64,000 nucleotides of DNA, taken from contig NZ_CANLGX010000009.1 in NCBI RefSeq assembly GCF_947490415.1, positions 1 to 64,000 on the forward strand, given 5' to 3'. Positions 38,473 to 46,698 of the stretch are shown piece after piece. The notes beneath the pieces are model-generated. The model was not told where the DNA came from. It saw only the letters and a list, made by a program, of their open reading frames with translations, and did not search any database. Each line of letters begins with the position of its first letter. The first letter of the stretch is position 1. Source of the DNA: an uncultured Eudoraea sp. (GTDB lineage Bacteria > Bacteroidota > Bacteroidia > Flavobacteriales > Flavobacteriaceae). A program made the position numbers and the translations under genes.

Positions 38473-40014
38473 ATGGGATTAAAAGCATTATCTCGCTTAG
38501 CTGGTTTATTAGTTTTTGTACTACTTCTTTTCAATAGTTGCGGTTCCGGTTTTAATTATTCCATAAAATCGACCTTAAATCCTTATAATATATCACCGTT
38601 AACCGCTCAGTTAAAAATTGAGACGGAAACACCCTGCAACGTTACCATTAAGGTTCTGGGTAAGATTCCGGTGGAACAAACATTTAATCTTAACGCCACC
38701 AACTTGGAGGTCCCGGTAGTAGGTTTATACCCTAATACTTTAAATAATGTCATTGTTACTTTAGACTACGATGGTGGACAAGTAATAGACAGTATTAAGA
38801 TAAAAACAGGGAATACCCCAAGCCATTTTCCCCAGATAACCATAAACAAGCTAAATCGAAATGAAATGGAGCCAGGCATGCATGCTTGTGATATTCATTT
38901 TGCCAACAATGGAAAATTCAATTCCGGGCCTATAATTTTTGACGACCAAGGCCAAGTGCGGTGGTATTTAGATTTAAGTTTTGCCGGTAAAATGGTTAGT
39001 CCGTTTCAACGACTTAAGGACGGAACGATTTTAATGGTTAGCAGGCATGTTATTTATGAATTTGATATGTTGGGTAAACCATTAAAAGAAACCAATATAG
39101 GTACAAATTACGGTATGCACCATGACGTACAAGAATTACCGGATGGCAACTTACTGATATGTGTTGGTAAAAGAAATAATTTTATAAAATTAGATAATAA
39201 GTTTGTTGCCTCAGACAGTGATCATATCATAGAATTTGACAGAAAAAAATCAAAAATTGTCAGAGAATGGGATTTAACCAAACATTTGGATGTTAGTAGA
39301 AATGATTTGAATTTTTTTAGACCTCGTGATTGGCTCCACATGAATGGCCTTGCTTATAATCCGAGTGATAATTCAATAATTGTATCTGGAAAAAACCAGG
39401 GATTGATAAAAATTTCTTGGGATGATCGTCTAAAATGGATTATGGCACCAAAAAGGAACTGGGGTAAATCTGGGAAAGAAGGAAAAGGTTTCGAAACAAA
39501 ACCTTATTTATTAACCGCTGTTGATTCTGAAGGAAAACCTTATGACAGAGCTGTTCAGGATGGAAACGAAAGTTCAGAGGAATTTGACTTTCCCTGGGGA
39601 ATGCATTCCCCATCTATAATGCCCGATGGTAATCTTTTGGTATTTGATAACGGTGCCTTTAGATATTTTGAAAATAACGTCCATTATTCCCGCGCAGTGA
39701 TTTATAAAATAAATGAAGAAGATAAAACTACAGAGCAGATTTGGCAATATGGCAAAGAAAGAGGGCCGGAATTTTTCTCTACCATTGTTAGTGATGCAGA
39801 TTATCTGGCCAATTCAAATAATATTCTGGTTACTTCCGGCTATCTAAAACAAGGAACTAAACTATCTGCTAAACTGGTTGAAGTAGACTATGAAACGCGT
39901 AAAGAGGTTTTTGAAGCAACACTAGATTTTAAAAGTGAACATGGTAACAAAAGTGGTTCTTGGGGCCAAACTGATATTTTATATAGATCTGAACGATTAG
40001 AATTGAAGTATTAG
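38473..40014 (+). CDS. Arylsulfate sulfotransferase-like lipoprotein
   Basis: 513 residues. Lipoprotein signal peptide (LLFNSC, lipid-modified Cys at 23), then an N-terminal Fn3-like region and a beta-propeller of the ASST family. Candidate catalytic His in GMHHDVQELPDGN (~217), RPRDWLHMNGLAYNPSD (~290) and PWGMHSPSIMPDGNLLVFDN (~380). Known: bacterial ASST moves sulfate between phenols without PAPS and uses a covalent sulfo-His. Inferred: periplasmic or surface-anchored enzyme acting on phenolic sulfates; the exact substrate cannot be told. Stands alone, with its own promoter and a possible operator shared with the adhesin gene. Confidence 0.8.
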   Translation: MGLKALSRLAGLLVFVLLLFNSCGSGFNYSIKSTLNPYNISPLTAQLKIETETPCNVTIKVLGKIPVEQTFNLNATNLEVPVVGLYPNTLNNVIVTLDYDGGQVIDSIKIKTGNTPSHFPQITINKLNRNEMEPGMHACDIHFANNGKFNSGPIIFDDQGQVRWYLDLSFAGKMVSPFQRLKDGTILMVSRHVIYEFDMLGKPLKETNIGTNYGMHHDVQELPDGNLLICVGKRNNFIKLDNKFVASDSDHIIEFDRKKSKIVREWDLTKHLDVSRNDLNFFRPRDWLHMNGLAYNPSDNSIIVSGKNQGLIKISWDDRLKWIMAPKRNWGKSGKEGKGFETKPYLLTAVDSEGKPYDRAVQDGNESSEEFDFPWGMHSPSIMPDGNLLVFDNGAFRYFENNVHYSRAVIYKINEEDKTTEQIWQYGKERGPEFFSTIVSDADYLANSNNILVTSGYLKQGTKLSAKLVEVDYETRKEVFEATLDFKSEHGNKSGSWGQTDILYRSERLELKY

Positions 40015-40057: not shown

Positions 40058-40087
40058 TTGGATCTATATTTCCTTTAAATTGATTTG
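40058..40087 (+). promoter_or_regulatory. Tentative trp operon promoter
   Basis: TTG at 40058-40060 and TTGATTTG at 40080-40087 (one mismatch to TAnnTTTG), 19 bp apart. If correct the transcript starts near 40094, favouring the second ATG (40120) as leader-peptide start. Weak evidence. Confidence 0.35.
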
Positions 40088-40092
40088 TAATT

Positions 40093-40176
40093 ATGAAATT
40101 CCTTTCTATATTTGACTCAATGAAATTTAGAATAGTAAATACTTGGTGGTGGAATAACTTACGTATAACGTCGTGA
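40093..40176 (+). CDS. trpL: trp operon leader peptide (three consecutive Trp codons)
   Basis: 27-residue reading frame (MKFLSIFDSMKFRIVNTW, then WWNNLRITS) with TGG TGG TGG at 40144-40152, ending TGA at 40174-40176. An internal ATG at 40120 gives an 18-residue form. It lies 98 bp before a terminator hairpin that precedes trpE. Known: leader peptides with runs of the regulated amino acid drive ribosome-mediated attenuation. Too short to be found by ordinary gene calling. The Trp run, position and alternative RNA helices together make this a real regulatory peptide. Confidence 0.85.
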   Translation: MKFLSIFDSMKFRIVNTWWWNNLRITS

Positions 40177-40236
40177 GCTAAGCACCATTGTAGTATAACT
40201 ATACGAAAAGGCTTGTCTATCACGACAAGCCTTTTT
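40162..40236 (+). promoter_or_regulatory. trp attenuator (antiterminator and terminator helices)
   Basis: Terminator: 12-bp stem 40206-40217/40224-40235 with a 6-nt loop and a T-run to 40236. Antiterminator: GTCGTGA (40170-40176, over the leader stop) pairs with TCACGAC (40220-40226), and AAGC (40180-40183) pairs with GCTT (40211-40214). Both use bases of the terminator stem, so the two structures exclude each other. A further CGTATA/TATACG pairing (40162-40167/40200-40205) and a TGGTG/CACCA pairing over the Trp codons are possible 'ribosome not stalled' structures. Confidence 0.8.
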
Positions 40237-40282
40237 GATTTTTCAGAATTAGTTAATATCAAAATCTAAATTTTTGCAGATT

Positions 40283-41680
40283 ATGGCATATGAACTTAAA
40301 ACATACTATAAAAAGATACTCGCAGATACCATAACACCGGTTAGCGTATATCTGAAAATTCGTGACAAGTTTCCCAATAGTATTCTTTTGGAGAGTAGTG
40401 ATTACAGAGCAAATGATAATACCTTTTCTTATATCTGTTGTAATCCTATAGCTTCTATCACGGTAAAGGATGAGCAAATTACTCAGCTATTTCCGGACAA
40501 ATCCACTAGTGAGATTACAATAAACAGCGAAACTGATGTTGTGGAAATTATACATGACTTCAGCCAAAAGTTTAAAACCGAATCTAATAGTTTTAAATTT
40601 ATAAATAATGGATTGTTTGGCTATATGTCTTATGATGCAGTTAGGTACTTTGAAGATATCTCTATCACAAAAAAAGAAGGTGCCCTGGATATTCCTGATA
40701 TTTATTATGCTGTTTACCAAAATATAATAGCCATAAATCATTTTAAGAATGAGGCATACTTATTTGCACATTGCTATGACTCTGTTAACAATATTTCTGA
40801 AATTGAACAAGTTCTAAATATCAGAAATTTCGCATCTTATAATTTCAGAAGGGAAGGTAAAGCCTCATCAAACCTAAAGGATGAAGAATATATACAACAA
40901 GTATCTCTGGCTAAAAAGCATTGTAAAAGAGGTGACGTTTTTCAATTAGTTCTTTCGCGAAGGTTTTCACAAGGCTTTAAAGGAGATGAATTCAATGTTT
41001 ATCGGGCCCTTCGTTCTATTAATCCTTCTCCATATCTGTTTTATTTTGACTATGGAGATTTTAAAATTTTTGGTAGTTCACCGGAAGCACAATTAATTGT
41101 TAAAAACGGAAAGGCTGAAATACATCCAATTGCGGGAACTTTTAAAAGAACCGGTAATGATGAAGAAGATGCCTTATTAGCTAAAAAACTAACCGAAGAT
41201 GCAAAGGAAAATAGTGAGCATGTTATGCTTGTAGACCTTGCGCGTAACGACCTAAGCCGGCATGGGAATTTGGTAAATGTTGAAAACTATAGGGAAGTTC
41301 AATTCTTTTCTCATGTTATTCATCTTGTTTCCAAAGTTACAGGGCAGAAAAAAAAAGAAACACCAACTATGAAAGTTGTAGCAGACACTTTTCCGGCAGG
41401 TACCCTGAGCGGGGCACCCAAACATATGGCTATGCAGCTCATTGAAAAGTATGAGACCACCAACAGAGATTACTACGGCGGGGCCATCGGATTTATGGAT
41501 TTTGACGGAGATTTTAATCATGCCATTATGATCCGGACCTTCTTAAGTAAGAATCACCAACTTCATTACCAGGCAGGAGCAGGTTTAGTAGCGGTCTCTG
41601 AACCGGAAAAAGAGCTACAGGAAACTTACAATAAATTGGGAGCTCTTAATAAAGCTCTGGAAATTGCAGAAACTATCTAA
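40283..41680 (+). CDS. trpE: Anthranilate synthase component I
   Basis: 465 residues from the ATG at 40283; an in-frame TTG at 40274 is less likely. Converts chorismate plus NH3 (from TrpG) to anthranilate. Seen: the Trp feedback-binding segment SILLESSDYR near the N-terminus, and the catalytic domain with GDVFQLVLSRRF, YLFYFDYGDFKIFGSSPEAQ, IAGTFKRTGNDEEDALLAK, ELDL-type region HVMLVDLARNDLSRHGN and FPAGTLSGAPKHMAMQLIE. First gene of the trp operon, directly behind the attenuator, so its expression should respond to charged tRNA-Trp. Confidence 0.96.
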   Translation: MAYELKTYYKKILADTITPVSVYLKIRDKFPNSILLESSDYRANDNTFSYICCNPIASITVKDEQITQLFPDKSTSEITINSETDVVEIIHDFSQKFKTESNSFKFINNGLFGYMSYDAVRYFEDISITKKEGALDIPDIYYAVYQNIIAINHFKNEAYLFAHCYDSVNNISEIEQVLNIRNFASYNFRREGKASSNLKDEEYIQQVSLAKKHCKRGDVFQLVLSRRFSQGFKGDEFNVYRALRSINPSPYLFYFDYGDFKIFGSSPEAQLIVKNGKAEIHPIAGTFKRTGNDEEDALLAKKLTEDAKENSEHVMLVDLARNDLSRHGNLVNVENYREVQFFSHVIHLVSKVTGQKKKETPTMKVVADTFPAGTLSGAPKHMAMQLIEKYETTNRDYYGGAIGFMDFDGDFNHAIMIRTFLSKNHQLHYQAGAGLVAVSEPEKELQETYNKLGALNKALEIAETI

Positions 41681-41700: not shown

Positions 41701-42264
41701 ATGAATAAAATACTGGTAATAGATAATTACGATAGCTTTACTTATAACCTGGTGCATTATTTGGTGGATTTGGGTTGCGAAGTAGTTGTTAAACGCAATG
41801 ACCAGCTAAAATTGGAAGAAGTTGATGATTTTGAGAAAATAGTGCTTTCGCCGGGCCCTGGAATCCCTGATGAAGCCGGACTTCTTAAAGAAATAATTGC
41901 TAAATATGCCCCAACTAAAAGCATTTTGGGGGTTTGTCTGGGCCAGCAGGCTATAGGAGAAGTTTTTGGTGGTAAGTTGATAAATTTAGACGAAGTTTAT
42001 CATGGGATCGCCACAAAAATAATCCTTGAAAAAGGGGAGCCTTTATTTGAAGGCTTACCAAGGGAAATTGTAGTGGGCCGATATCATTCGTGGGTTGTAG
42101 ATCCTCAACTTCCGGATGTTCTCGAGGCTACTTCTTTTGATGAGAATGGGCAGCTGATGTCAATAAGGCACAAAACATATGATGTATGTGCTGTTCAGTT
42201 TCATCCAGAATCTGTTCTTACGCCTCAGGGCAAGGAAATTCTTAAAAATTGGCTCAGAGATTAA
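41701..42264 (+). CDS. trpG: Anthranilate synthase component II (glutamine amidotransferase)
   Basis: 187 residues. Class I glutamine amidotransferase supplying NH3 to TrpE. Seen: DNYDSFTYNLVHYL, SPGPGIPDEAGLL, the nucleophile in GVCLGQQAIGE (Cys at ~79), and the His/Glu of the triad in VQFHPESVLTPQG. A separate gene rather than fused to trpE or trpD; 20 bp after trpE. Could also serve PABA synthesis in some bacteria, but operon context points to tryptophan. Confidence 0.96.
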   Translation: MNKILVIDNYDSFTYNLVHYLVDLGCEVVVKRNDQLKLEEVDDFEKIVLSPGPGIPDEAGLLKEIIAKYAPTKSILGVCLGQQAIGEVFGGKLINLDEVYHGIATKIILEKGEPLFEGLPREIVVGRYHSWVVDPQLPDVLEATSFDENGQLMSIRHKTYDVCAVQFHPESVLTPQGKEILKNWLRD

Positions 42265-42301
42265 TGAATCGGTTGGTGATTCCTTATTAAAATTAAAACA
42301 A

Positions 42302-43294
42302 ATGAAAACGATTCTAAATAAATTGATCAATCATGACATCCTCTCCAAGGAAGATGCAAAGCAGGTATTGGTTAATATTGCCAAAGGAACTTATAACAAT
42401 AGCCAAATCGCTGCATTTCTTACAGTGTATATGATGCGTAGTATTACAATTGAAGAATTAGAGGGATTTCGAGATGCGTTGTTGGAACTATGTCTGGCCA
42501 TTGATCTATCTGAATACAATCCAATTGATCTTTGCGGAACAGGAGGTGATGGCAAGGATACCTTTAATATTTCAACTCTGGCTTCCTTTGTTACAGCTGG
42601 AGCTGGCATTAAGGTAACCAAACATGGTAATTATGGGGTTTCTTCTACCTGTGGGAGCAGCAATGTTATGGAGTTTTTAGGTGTAAAATTCAGTAATGAT
42701 CCTGACTTTCTTAGAAAATCAATAGACGAAGCCGGGATCTGTGTACTGCATGCCCCCCTATTCCATCCCGCTATGAAAAATGTAGCACCTATAAGACGTG
42801 AACTTGCCGTCAAAACATTTTTTAATATGCTTGGGCCAATGGTAAATCCTGCCTTTCCTAAAAATCAAATAGTTGGGGTTTTTAATTTAGAATTAGCACG
42901 AATGTATGGGTATCTCTATCAGAATACCGATAAAAAATACACAGTTCTCCATGCTCTTGATGGATATGATGAGATTTCATTGACAGGGAGTACCAAAACT
43001 ATTTCAAATAATACGGAGGCTATTTTAAATCCTTCAGATTTTGGAGTGGCTGTTGTAAAGGAAAACGAAATAACGGGAGGTGATAGTATTGACAAATCTG
43101 CCCAAATATTTATGAATATATTACAGGGCAGAGGCACGGAAGCGCAAAACAATGTAGTCTGTGCAAATGCCGGGATAGCTATCGGCACAGTTCTGGATAT
43201 TAGTCCAAAACAAGGTTTTGAAAAAGCAAAAGAATCCCTCCTCAACGGAAATGGCCTGAATGCCTTAAGAAAATTACAGCAATTAAGTGCATGA
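42302..43294 (+). CDS. trpD: Anthranilate phosphoribosyltransferase
   Basis: 330 residues from ATG at 42302; the reading frame extends upstream to 42179 but that part overlaps trpG and is not conserved-looking. Transfers phosphoribose from PRPP to anthranilate. Seen: the glycine-rich PRPP loop CGTGGDGKDTFNIST (~79-93), KHGNYGVSSTCGSSNVMEFL and LFHPAMKNVAPIRRELAVKT. Located 37 bp after trpG; its stop overlaps the trpC start. Confidence 0.96.
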   Translation: MKTILNKLINHDILSKEDAKQVLVNIAKGTYNNSQIAAFLTVYMMRSITIEELEGFRDALLELCLAIDLSEYNPIDLCGTGGDGKDTFNISTLASFVTAGAGIKVTKHGNYGVSSTCGSSNVMEFLGVKFSNDPDFLRKSIDEAGICVLHAPLFHPAMKNVAPIRRELAVKTFFNMLGPMVNPAFPKNQIVGVFNLELARMYGYLYQNTDKKYTVLHALDGYDEISLTGSTKTISNNTEAILNPSDFGVAVVKENEITGGDSIDKSAQIFMNILQGRGTEAQNNVVCANAGIAIGTVLDISPKQGFEKAKESLLNGNGLNALRKLQQLSA

Positions 43295-44079
43295 TGGATA
43301 TATTGGATAAAATAGTAGTGGATAAGAAAAGGGAATTGCACCTTAAAAAAACTGTAATCCCCCTTATGCAATTAGAGACTTCATTACTCTTCCAAAGGGA
43401 ACCCGTGTCCCTGGCCAATGCATTGCGGAACAGTAAAACAGGGATTATTGCAGAGCACAAAAGAAGATCCCCTTCTAAATCAGTGATCAATCAAAATTCA
43501 AGTGTACAGGATATCGCCATGGGATACATGAATGCAGGGGCTTGTGGCATGTCTGTTTTAACAGATGCCAAATATTTTGGAGGGTCTCTTGATGATTTAA
43601 TAATAGCCAGAGCTGCTGTTGATTTTCCACTGTTAAGAAAGGAATTTATCATAGATGAATACCAAATCGTAGAAGCCCGTGCACATGGGGCTGATACAAT
43701 TTTACTTATTGCCGCTATTTTGACAAGGAAACAAATAAAGGTTTTATCAGAATTAGCAAAAAGTTTAGGTTTGGATGTTTTACTGGAAGTTCATAATGAA
43801 GAAGAGTTAGTTAAATCAATGATGCCCGGTTTAGATATGTTGGGAGTAAATAATCGCAACTTAAAAACCTTTGAAGTAAGCTTAGAAACCAGTGCCTCTC
43901 TATCCCAAAAGATCCCCGATGAATTTATAAAAGTATCAGAAAGTGGTATTAGCTCTGTTTCGGCGATTAAAATGCTAAGAGAATTGGGTTACCAGGGTTT
44001 CTTAGTTGGTGAAAACTTTATGAAGACAGCAAACCCAGGGGAGAGTGCCAGGGAATTTATAAACCAAATGGCAAGATGA
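43291..44079 (+). CDS. trpC: Indole-3-glycerol phosphate synthase
   Basis: 262 residues. TIM-barrel enzyme. Seen: IIAEHKRRSPSKSVINQ (phosphate-site Lys), DAKYFGGSLDDL, LLRKEFIIDEYQIVEARAHG, DVLLEVHNEEEL, GVNNRNLKTFEV and SESGISSVSAI. Overlaps trpD by 4 nt (ATGA), so the two are translationally coupled; a second ATG follows at 43294. Not fused to TrpF, unlike in enterobacteria. Confidence 0.96.
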   Translation: MMDILDKIVVDKKRELHLKKTVIPLMQLETSLLFQREPVSLANALRNSKTGIIAEHKRRSPSKSVINQNSSVQDIAMGYMNAGACGMSVLTDAKYFGGSLDDLIIARAAVDFPLLRKEFIIDEYQIVEARAHGADTILLIAAILTRKQIKVLSELAKSLGLDVLLEVHNEEELVKSMMPGLDMLGVNNRNLKTFEVSLETSASLSQKIPDEFIKVSESGISSVSAIKMLRELGYQGFLVGENFMKTANPGESAREFINQMAR

Positions 44080-44717
44080 AACTAAAGATCTGTGGCATGA
44101 AGCATAATATTGAGGAGGTTGCAGAATTGCATCCAGATTACCTCGGATTTATCTTTTGGAAGCCTTCAATGCGTTTTTTTGATGGGTCCATACCTAAATT
44201 GCCTAAGACAACTAGAAAAGTTGGAGTTTTTGTTGATGCCAATATTGATGAAATCTTAAATCGGACCAATACATTCGATTTAAATGCCATACAATTGCAT
44301 GGAAATGAATCCCCCGAATTCTGTGCTAAGCTAAAAGAGCAATTTGAATACCAAAATATCAAGATCGACATTCTTAAGGTATTTAGCATAAAAGACAGCT
44401 TTGATTTCCAACAACTTGGCCCTTATGAGAAATTATCCGATTTCTTTTTATTCGACACAAAGGGTAAGTTGCCCGGTGGCAATGGATATCAATTTAACTG
44501 GGAAGTCCTAAAGGGGTATCCATCAAAAAAACCCTATTTCCTAAGCGGGGGTATTGGTCTCGAGGAAGTTGATAATGTTTTAGAATTTCTTCAAAAGGAA
44601 GAATCTAAATATTGCCATGCTATTGATGTCAATAGTAAATTTGAAATATCACCGGGCCTAAAGGATATAGATAAATTAAAAGAATTTAAGAATCGGTTGT
44701 TTGAAACCAACTCATAA
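44076..44717 (+). CDS. trpF: Phosphoribosylanthranilate isomerase
   Basis: 213 residues. TIM-barrel. Seen: [15 protein letters not shown] (catalytic Cys at 6), [61 protein letters not shown] (general acid Asp) and the phosphate loop [11 protein letters not shown]. Overlaps trpC by 4 nt. Catalyses the Amadori rearrangement between TrpD and TrpC steps. Confidence 0.95.
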
Positions 44718-44728
44718 AAAATACGAAT

Positions 44729-45910
44729 ATGACTTATCATGCTGATGAAAAAGGCTATTACGGACAGTTTGGTGGGGCATTTATACCGGAAATGCTATAC
44801 CCTAATACTGAAGAACTTAGACAAAACTATCTTCAGATTATGGAGGAACCATCTTTTATTGAAGAATTCCATAGACTATTACAAGATTATGTAGGAAGGC
44901 CCACACCTCTATATTTTGCCCAACGCCTTTCGGATAAGTATAAAACAAAAATTTATCTGAAAAGGGAAGATTTATGTCATACCGGTGCCCATAAAGTCAA
45001 TAATACCATTGGGCAAATTTTAATGGCCAAAAGGTTAGGCAAGACACGAATCATCGCAGAAACAGGTGCCGGACAGCATGGGGTGGCCACTGCTACAGTT
45101 TGCGCACTCATGGGAATTGAGTGTGTGGTTTATATGGGTGAAATAGATATTGCTCGTCAAGCACCTAATGTGGCTAGAATGAAAATGCTGGGAGCAGAAG
45201 TAAGGCCGGCACTATCGGGTAGCAGAACGCTCAAGGATGCCACGAATGAGGCAATTCGCGACTGGATTAATAATCCGGTAAACACCCATTATATAATAGG
45301 TTCAGTTGTTGGTCCGCATCCCTACCCCGATATGGTGGCCAGATTTCAATCAGTAATTTCAGAGGAAATACAGTCTCAGCTGCTGGAAAAAGAAGGCACT
45401 CCGAACCCTGATTTTGTTGTGGCTTGTGTCGGTGGTGGAAGTAATGCCGCTGGTGCCTATTACCATTATCTGGATAATGAAGATGTTGGTATCATTGCTG
45501 TCGAGGCCGCCGGAAAGGGTATTCATTCCGGGGAAAGTGCCGCAACTTCTGCTCTGGGGAAAATTGGTATTATTCACGGTAGTAAAACACTACTTATGCA
45601 AACTCAAGACGGTCAGATCACTGAACCATATTCTATTTCTGCCGGCCTGGATTATCCGGGCGTAGGGCCTATGCATGCCCATCTGTACACCTCCGGGCGG
45701 GGTGAGTTTATTTCTATTACCGATGATGAAGCAATGACAGCAGGTTTAATGATATCTCAATTAGAAGGCATTATACCAGCAATAGAGACATCACATGCTT
45801 TCGCCATATTTGACCACAGAAAGTTTGAAAAAGACGATATTGTTGTTATCAACCTTTCTGGAAGAGGTGATAAAGATTTACAGACCTATATAGATTATTT
45901 CAAATTATAA
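44729..45910 (+). CDS. trpB: Tryptophan synthase beta chain
   Basis: 393 residues. PLP enzyme joining indole and serine. Seen: [37 protein letters not shown] with the PLP Lys, [32 protein letters not shown] (PLP phosphate loop) and [17 protein letters not shown]. Standard TrpB1 length. 11 bp after trpF. Confidence 0.98.
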
Positions 45911-45924
45911 TTGGTTTCTATAAA

Positions 45925-46698
45925 ATGAAGAACAGAATACAAAAAAAGCTGGGTGAAGACAAAAAACTACTTTCCATATACTTCTCTGCCGGTTATCCCA
46001 ATCTGAATGATACGGTTTCTATTATTCAGGATTTGGAAAAAAACGGTGTTGATATGATAGAAATAGGCCTTCCATTCAGTGATCCTTTAGCAGACGGGCC
46101 TACCATTCAGAAAAGTTCCACAATAGCTTTAAAGAATGGCATGGGAACAGATCTACTGTTTAATCAATTAAAAGAAATAAGAAAAACTGTTTCGATTCCC
46201 CTGATCATTATGGGGTATTTTAATCCTGTTTTACAGTACGGGGTAGAGAACTTCTGCAAAAAATGTCAGGAAATAGGTATTGATGGTCTTATCCTTCCAG
46301 ATTTACCTCTGGACGTATACCTGGAAGAATATGAGACTATTTTTAAAAAATATAATTTAATCAACATTTTTCTAATTACTCCGCAAACCAGTGAATCACG
46401 AATTGCACAAATAGACGACGCTTCAGAGGGATTCATTTATATGGTAAGTTCTGCCAGTACCACGGGGGCTAAGCAGGGATTAGGAGAAGAACAGGAAGCT
46501 TACTTTGAGCGAATTGCAGCAATGAATCTTAAAAACCCGCAAATTGTAGGTTTTGGCATAAGTAATGCCCGTACATTTGAGCAAGCTACTAAGACAGCCA
46601 AGGGTGCTATCATTGGTTCCGCATTTATTAAAATGTTATCACAGGAAGGTACGGCTGGGATTTCAGAATTTATTAAACATCTTAAACCATATCCATGA
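45925..46698 (+). CDS. trpA: Tryptophan synthase alpha chain
   Basis: 257 residues. TIM-barrel cleaving indole-3-glycerol phosphate. Seen: YFSAGYPNLNDTVSIIQDLE, catalytic Glu in DMIEIGLPFSDPLADGPTIQ, MGYFNPVLQYG, GLILPDLPLDVYLEEY (catalytic Asp) and the phosphate loops IVGFGISNARTFEQ and GAIIGSAFIK. 14 bp after trpB; its last 4 nt overlap the next small gene. Confidence 0.97.
   Translation: MKNRIQKKLGEDKKLLSIYFSAGYPNLNDTVSIIQDLEKNGVDMIEIGLPFSDPLADGPTIQKSSTIALKNGMGTDLLFNQLKEIRKTVSIPLIIMGYFNPVLQYGVENFCKKCQEIGIDGLILPDLPLDVYLEEYETIFKKYNLINIFLITPQTSESRIAQIDDASEGFIYMVSSASTTGAKQGLGEEQEAYFERIAAMNLKNPQIVGFGISNARTFEQATKTAKGAIIGSAFIKMLSQEGTAGISEFIKHLKPYP

Follow-up and report, generated by a model that had tools for sequence, protein, structure and literature searches.

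The Bacteroid-trp leader upstream of the trp operon of an uncultured Eudoraea sp.: a probable ribosome-mediated attenuator

Background

The trp attenuator of E. coli consists of a leader peptide with Trp codons, a protector hairpin, an antiterminator and a terminator.

In the Bacteroidota, a trp leader element is already catalogued. RF01692 was published in 2010 (Weinberg et al.) as a cis-regulatory candidate of Bacteroidetes (PMC2864571). A 2019 paper reports its conservation upstream of the trp operon of F. psychrophilum and compares it to the E. coli leader (PMC6414381); a trp-attenuator role for Bacteroid-trp has thus already been suggested in print for that species. In the accessible portions of the open-licence literature, neither an antiterminator nor leaderlessness was found described for the Bacteroidota family, and the available excerpts of PMC4833913 (leader genes), PMC2494555 and PMC8229198 contain nothing on a Bacteroidota trp leader.

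The leader and its operon

The window, the whole stretch of 64,000 nt from an uncultured Eudoraea sp. that was analysed, contains a complete trp operon: trpE, then trpG, trpD, trpC, trpF, trpB and trpA (Table 1). The gene upstream of the leader (38473-40014) encodes an arylsulfotransferase-family protein (PF05935, 9.6e-101). The leader matches the covariance model of RF01692 "Bacteroid-trp" at 76.3 bits against a curated cut-off of 49, over model positions 1-131 of 131 (E = 8e-8 in the window search). With this score above the cut-off, trpEGDCFBA downstream and a Bacteroidota host, the leader RNA is an ordinary member of the catalogued family. The preliminary description presented a specific testable layout in flavobacteria; this layout is not new there, because the RNA belongs to a family catalogued in 2010. 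The 153-nt leader region has a minimum free energy of -46.4 kcal/mol, against a mean of -24.8 for shuffled sequences (z -6.5).

The three TGG codons, the TGA stop and the 47-nt gap between 40235 and the trpE ATG at 40283 lie in the sequence where that description had placed them. Absent from it were the family membership, the promoter and the inner hairpin (40158-40163/40172-40177) that masks GTCGTGA.

Table 1. Coordinates of the leader features and trp genes in the window
Feature	Position	Strand	Basis or remark
-33 element TTTG	40084..40087	+	19 nt before the -7 box
-7 element TATATTTG	40107..40114	+	Bacteroidota sigma-A consensus TAnnTTTG (PMC9723704, PMC6847099)
Predicted transcription start	40119..40120	+	at or 1 nt before leader ATG; placed by -7 spacing
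Leader peptide MKFRIVNTWWWNNLRITS, 18 codons	40120..40176	+	stop TGA 40174-40176
Three Trp control codons	40144..40152	+	sequence
Outer protector/pause hairpin	40132..40202	+	pairs Trp codons with 40183-40202; region modelled in Rfam
Inner protector hairpin, CTTACG 40158-40163 / CGTGAG 40172-40177	40158..40177	+	masks GTCGTGA
Antiterminator 5' strand GTCGTGA	40170..40176	+	overlaps stop codon
AAGC, proposed inner antiterminator pairing with GCTT 40211-40214	40180..40183	+	predicted fold
Intrinsic terminator hairpin and T-rich tract	40204..40237	+	14 pairs
Antiterminator 3' strand TCACGAC	40220..40226	+	last four terminator-loop bases and first three of 3' arm
trpE, anthranilate synthase component I	40283..41680	+	best NCBIfam match TIGR00564, 435.8 bits, under model cut-off 517.7
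trpG, trpD, trpC, trpF, trpB, trpA in order	41701..46698	+	ORFs and best NCBIfam matches, several under model cut-offs

Distribution among relatives

Matches to RF01692 are found in 9 of 10 same-genus genomes, 275 of 397 same-family genomes, 40 of 246 genomes sampled from the order and 42 of 395 sampled from the phylum; each of these counts includes the genome itself. The other 122 same-family genomes have no match at strict filters; searches over 40 genomes were run with stricter filters, at which weak matches are lost. To avoid selection by the RNA, 80 loci were taken by TrpE protein alone; these are nearest relatives and not a wide sample. In all 80, trpE is preceded by three Trp codons followed by a terminator.

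In eight of these loci (L180, L185, L196, L201, L223, L226, L228 and L236; seven of them Flagellimonas or Muricauda) the leader lies 466-554 nt from trpE. L180, the only one of the eight that was read, carries a small GIY-YIG protein gene (PF01541, 1.1e-16; positions 475-759) between attenuator and trpE, with short palindromes, seen by eye, next to it. The attenuator would therefore control that gene too. Allomuricauda taeanensis has two trpE loci (L216, L220) on different contigs with an identical leader peptide. A motif scan of the downstream gene at 158 loci gave a trpE-like start in 131, trpB in five and nothing in 22; the five (L118, L123, L140, L143 and L146) belong to other families of the class or order.

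Leaders were parsed at 152 of these 158 homologous loci. The leader set was drawn from 227 of 238 loci (L147, L154, L155 and the eight far leaders were skipped) and holds 210 leaders after removal of 17 duplicates. Alignment A1 contains 101 diverse leaders out of the 210, 83 obtained via the Rfam model and 18 via trpE. Thirteen of its rows were forced in: the reference (L001) and 12 divergent leaders, some of which (L070, L107, L110) were chosen since compensatory changes had already been seen there. Counts of two-sided changes are raised somewhat because of these divergent rows; in L070, L107 and L153 the strands that probably pair are not correctly aligned and were scored as broken.

Promoter and leader peptide

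Among the 210 unique leaders, 201 have a TAHHTTTG box in the 75 nt upstream of the Trp codons; among 1050 shuffles, 78 do. Of 169 leaders that could be scored, 150 carry TTG 17-25 nt upstream of the -7 box; for shuffles the figure is 336 of 1690. The distance from the -7 element to the transcript start is 4 or 5 nt in F. johnsoniae (PMC6847099), and the element lies at -12 to -5 in F. psychrophilum (PMC9723704). On the published 4-5 nt spacing, the start is placed at 40119-40120, next to or on the ATG at 40120. This ATG is the AUG of the RF01692 consensus and a conserved start. The first 20 positions of the Rfam model fall on 40100-40119, that is, on the -7 promoter DNA up to the inferred start, and the 5' end of the model is flagged here as covering promoter DNA in the Eudoraea-type clade. 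The preliminary description had proposed a 27-codon leader peptide. That frame is uninterrupted, but it begins with an ATG (40093) sited between the -33 and -7 boxes; because this ATG precedes the predicted transcript start it was rejected, leaving the 18-codon peptide from 40120.

A -7 box followed by an ATG 4-5 nt later occurs five times in the 64 kb, counting both strands. Both elements were parsed in 69 of the 80 TrpE-chosen loci; the ATG lies 5 nt from the box in 49 of them and 7 nt from it in 15. In the larger set of 210 leaders, 185 have the Trp run in the reading frame of the first ATG that follows the box; among the 185, this ATG is 4-8 nt past the box in 90 leaders and 14-23 nt past it in 80. 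The remaining 25 comprise 15 with an out-of-frame ATG first, seven without a box and three without an ATG. Twelve of the 15 out-of-frame ATGs abut the box directly and so come before the inferred start, and two of the three ATG-less leaders (L069 and L111) carry a GTG exactly 5 nt from the box. Tight spacing is a trait of one part of the family, since other leaders have their ATG 14-23 nt from the box; for these a 5' leader of about 10-18 nt is predicted.

The box-adjacent layout is common to Eudoraea/Maribacter/Flagellimonas-type relatives, and the leader peptide is probably leaderless, its AUG coinciding with or adjoining the 5' end of the RNA. If so, the first ribosome would load directly onto the exposed 5' terminus of the growing transcript. 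Only a minority of Bacteroidota mRNAs are of this type: leaderless or nearly leaderless mRNAs make up 5.5% in F. psychrophilum (PMC9723704), and about 3.7% of B. thetaiotaomicron mRNAs have a leader under 10 nt (PMC7366714). Translation initiation in this phylum departs from the Shine-Dalgarno rule, according to the same study of F. psychrophilum (PMC9723704).

The leader has a conserved frame with codons of the regulated amino acid, and its translation is predicted. Over the 27 nt that precede the Trp run, this frame is interrupted by a stop in three of 210 leaders; the other two frames are interrupted in 206 and 97. Thr commonly precedes the first Trp and all four of its codons are used (132 ACT, 25 ACA, 4 ACC and 1 ACG; n = 210). 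Conservation of the Trp-codon run in related genomes had been set beforehand as a condition of the attenuator reading; three Trp codons are found in 148 of the 152 parsed leaders and two in the other four. From the first Trp codon to the stop the distance is 30 nt in 94 of the parsed leaders, 36 nt in 24 and 21 nt in 20. Where translation no longer extends over the antiterminator strand, for example in L031, the strand is still kept.

Terminator and antiterminator

The terminator stem first recognised at 40206-40217/40224-40235 is present and comprises 14 pairs, from 40204 to 40237, with a T-rich tail. In A1, 97.1% of its cells are paired, and 9 of 12 pairs show two-sided changes (shuffled mean 2.1).

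The antiterminator, together with one extra pair (40170-40177/40219-40226), has 84.1% of its cells paired in A1. Two-sided changes occur at six of its eight pairs, against 2.3 in shuffles, none of 500 shuffles being as high; there are 18 two-sided cells against 3.7 shuffled. Slid versions of the helix reach at most three two-sided pairs and five cells. Every base pair in the core TCGTGA/TCACGA is present in 94 or more of the 101 leaders, while at the ends G170-C226 forms in 51 of 101 and the extra pair in 35 of 92. Divergent leaders re-pair with other bases: GTCGCAA/TTGCGAC in L110, GTCGTAAG/CTTGCGGC in L118 and GTCGTAA/TTACGGC in L146. The complementarity of GTCGTGA with TCACGAC, which uses the terminator loop and 3' arm, had been pointed out in the preliminary description, and its covariation exceeds both the shuffled and the slid controls. 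Covariation in both helices had been named there as the check to make; compensatory changes among the 101 leaders are found in the terminator and in the antiterminator alike, for the terminator too in excess of shuffled and slid controls. The two helices share bases 40224-40226 and are mutually exclusive.

This exclusion bears on a different reading of the complementarity, in which GTCGTGA contacts the terminator loop as a pseudoknot or kissing interaction, leaves the stem intact, and aids termination or pausing instead of opposing it. Four of the seven contacted bases (TCAC) do lie in the loop, and the terminator stem is strong. However, T171-A225 and C172-G224, which form in 96 and 99 of the 101 leaders, both exclude top pairs of the stem. 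Several leaders (L017, L040, L073) have a 4-nt loop, TCAC, which would be too short for full loop pairing. We consider a pseudoknot of this kind unlikely, and take GTCGTGA/TCACGAC as an antiterminator.

The AAGC/GCTT helix proposed as an inner part of the antiterminator is complementary and forms in the predicted fold, but its covariation in A1 (76.3% paired) is no higher than in shuffles; for that reason it was rejected as an evolutionarily supported element. L151 and L152, which belong to a single genus of the class, show by eye what may be an antiterminator of the classical type: GGCAGCC, just past the peptide, is complementary to GGTTGCC in the terminator 5' arm.

Protector hairpin

Support for a hairpin masking GTCGTGA appears weaker in the alignment than that for the terminator and antiterminator. 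The outer protector has 66.4% of its cells paired in A1 and 53 two-sided cells against 36.6 shuffled. It is not established, because its two-sided pairs equal shuffles (8 against 8.0) and two slid versions give 53 and 59 two-sided cells. The inner protector has 76.1% of cells paired and 36 two-sided cells against 13.7 shuffled, 31 of them from one column pair; slid by +3 it gives 34 two-sided cells and more pair types, but only 35.4% of cells are paired. The Rfam model contains the protector hairpin and lacks the terminator loop and 3' arm. Since this model picked 83 of the 101 rows, protector counts lean toward the hairpin; antiterminator counts do not.

Stepwise folding

The leader was folded at transcript ends 40220-40239 and at 40245; in the ribosome-bound states the RNA up to the ribosome footprint was removed; the footprint was assumed to reach about 13 nt past the A-site codon. 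The free RNA of the window forms protector and terminator, and no antiterminator at any tested length. With a ribosome stalled at Trp codon 1, 2 or 3, the antiterminator (7 + 4 pairs, -17.8 kcal/mol) becomes the minimum-energy fold from 40223-40225 until 40230-40231, where the terminator becomes the more stable of the two. Once the ribosome has moved on to an Arg codon or the stop, the antiterminator appears at no tested length. The full-length fold favours the terminator in every ribosome state, so that antitermination must be kinetic: the antiterminator forms first and persists.

The 210 leaders were folded similarly. At least five antiterminator pairs form at some length in 209 stalled leaders, in 13 with the ribosome at the stop and in 125 as free RNA; these 125 indicate that the protector does not dominate in every leader. 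For L148 this fold test yields no antiterminator. The terminator is at least 80% formed at full length in 190 of the 210 stalled leaders. Shuffled linkers reach five antiterminator pairs in 575 of 1050 cases, and the fold-state test was rejected as sole proof on this count. A contiguous antiterminator helix of at least 7 bp separates better than the five-pair test, since it is found in 145 of the 210 leaders against 128 of 4200 shuffles.

Proposed mechanism

From sequence, conservation, covariation and predicted folds, the locus is very probably a ribosome-mediated transcription attenuator of the Bacteroid-trp family; the transcription start, ribosome stalling, read-through and the response to Trp are inferred from these. 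RNA polymerase would start at about 40119-40120, and ribosomes would translate the 18-codon peptide from an AUG at or next to the 5' end. When charged tRNA-Trp is ample, the ribosome would reach the stop at 40174 and cover GTCGTGA, and the terminator (40204-40237) would form. It would form too in the absence of a ribosome, the protector hairpin then masking GTCGTGA. When Trp is scarce, the ribosome is predicted to stall at 40144-40152, which would open the protector and free GTCGTGA. The freed strand could capture TCACGAC immediately upon its emergence, while the terminator arm is still incomplete, and transcription would continue into trpEGDCFBA. The leader RNA thus most likely switches the trp genes on when tryptophan is scarce. 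Such attenuation was the core of the preliminary description, and the conserved frame, the covariation and the fold logic argue for it: the mechanism was largely right, the start codon was wrong, and the AAGC/GCTT helix went unsupported by covariation.

The terminated leader might instead serve chiefly as a small RNA or protein that acts in trans, with attenuation secondary. The leaderless trpL transcript of Sinorhizobium meliloti is a precedent (PMC7298713), and here too a short transcript is conserved, with a promoter and a terminator of its own predicted for it. Yet the conservation of the peptide is mostly around the Trp codons and the last codons, and both sit inside RNA helices; the leader stays in front of trpE, or of trpB in the five loci of other families; and the antiterminator, which trans action does not require, is conserved. 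A principal role in trans is therefore very unlikely. Control by a protein or a tRNA with no translating ribosome, as by the TRAP or T-box systems of Firmicutes trp operon leaders, has almost negligible probability, and TRAP, T-box and TrpR control were rejected: the genome gave 0 matches to TRAP protein (PF02081) and to TrpR (TIGR01321) and 0 covariance matches to the T-box (RF00230; none in the window), while control genomes gave matches, and a reading frame with Trp codons is conserved.

Comparison with known systems

If leaderless, the leader would resemble the leaderless trpL of S. meliloti, in which the transcript starts at the leader-peptide AUG (PMC7298713). That leader is alphaproteobacterial and its 5' end is known, whereas that of the Eudoraea leader is predicted.

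We lean slightly towards a joint proposal with two parts. The trp attenuators of Bacteroidota would form a distinct sub-type, in which the antiterminator strand lies at the stop codon, invades the terminator from the loop and 3' arm, and prevails through kinetics alone; selection would moreover keep the leader peptide leaderless in the Eudoraea/Maribacter/Flagellimonas-type clade, where the box-to-start spacing is mostly 5 nt. To the known family the alignments and promoter layout would add a supported loop-and-3'-arm antiterminator and, in this clade, a probable leaderless leader peptide. The leaderless start, if true, offers a simple natural reporter for transcription-translation coupling and leaderless initiation in Bacteroidota.

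The likeness to Rfam RF01692 consists of a full-length model match, identical Trp codons, an identical AUG and the position before trp genes. The Rfam structure differs in being the protector hairpin alone: it ends at the terminator 5' arm, without the terminator pairing or the antiterminator. An exact, testable anatomy is thereby given to a family that the Rfam model describes only partly.

The logic is the same as that of the E. coli trp attenuator. The E. coli antiterminator pairs mainly with the terminator 5' arm, whereas that of Eudoraea pairs with the loop and the start of the 3' arm. Unlike in E. coli, the Eudoraea antiterminator strand overlaps the stop codon, and the leader is probably without a 5' untranslated region.
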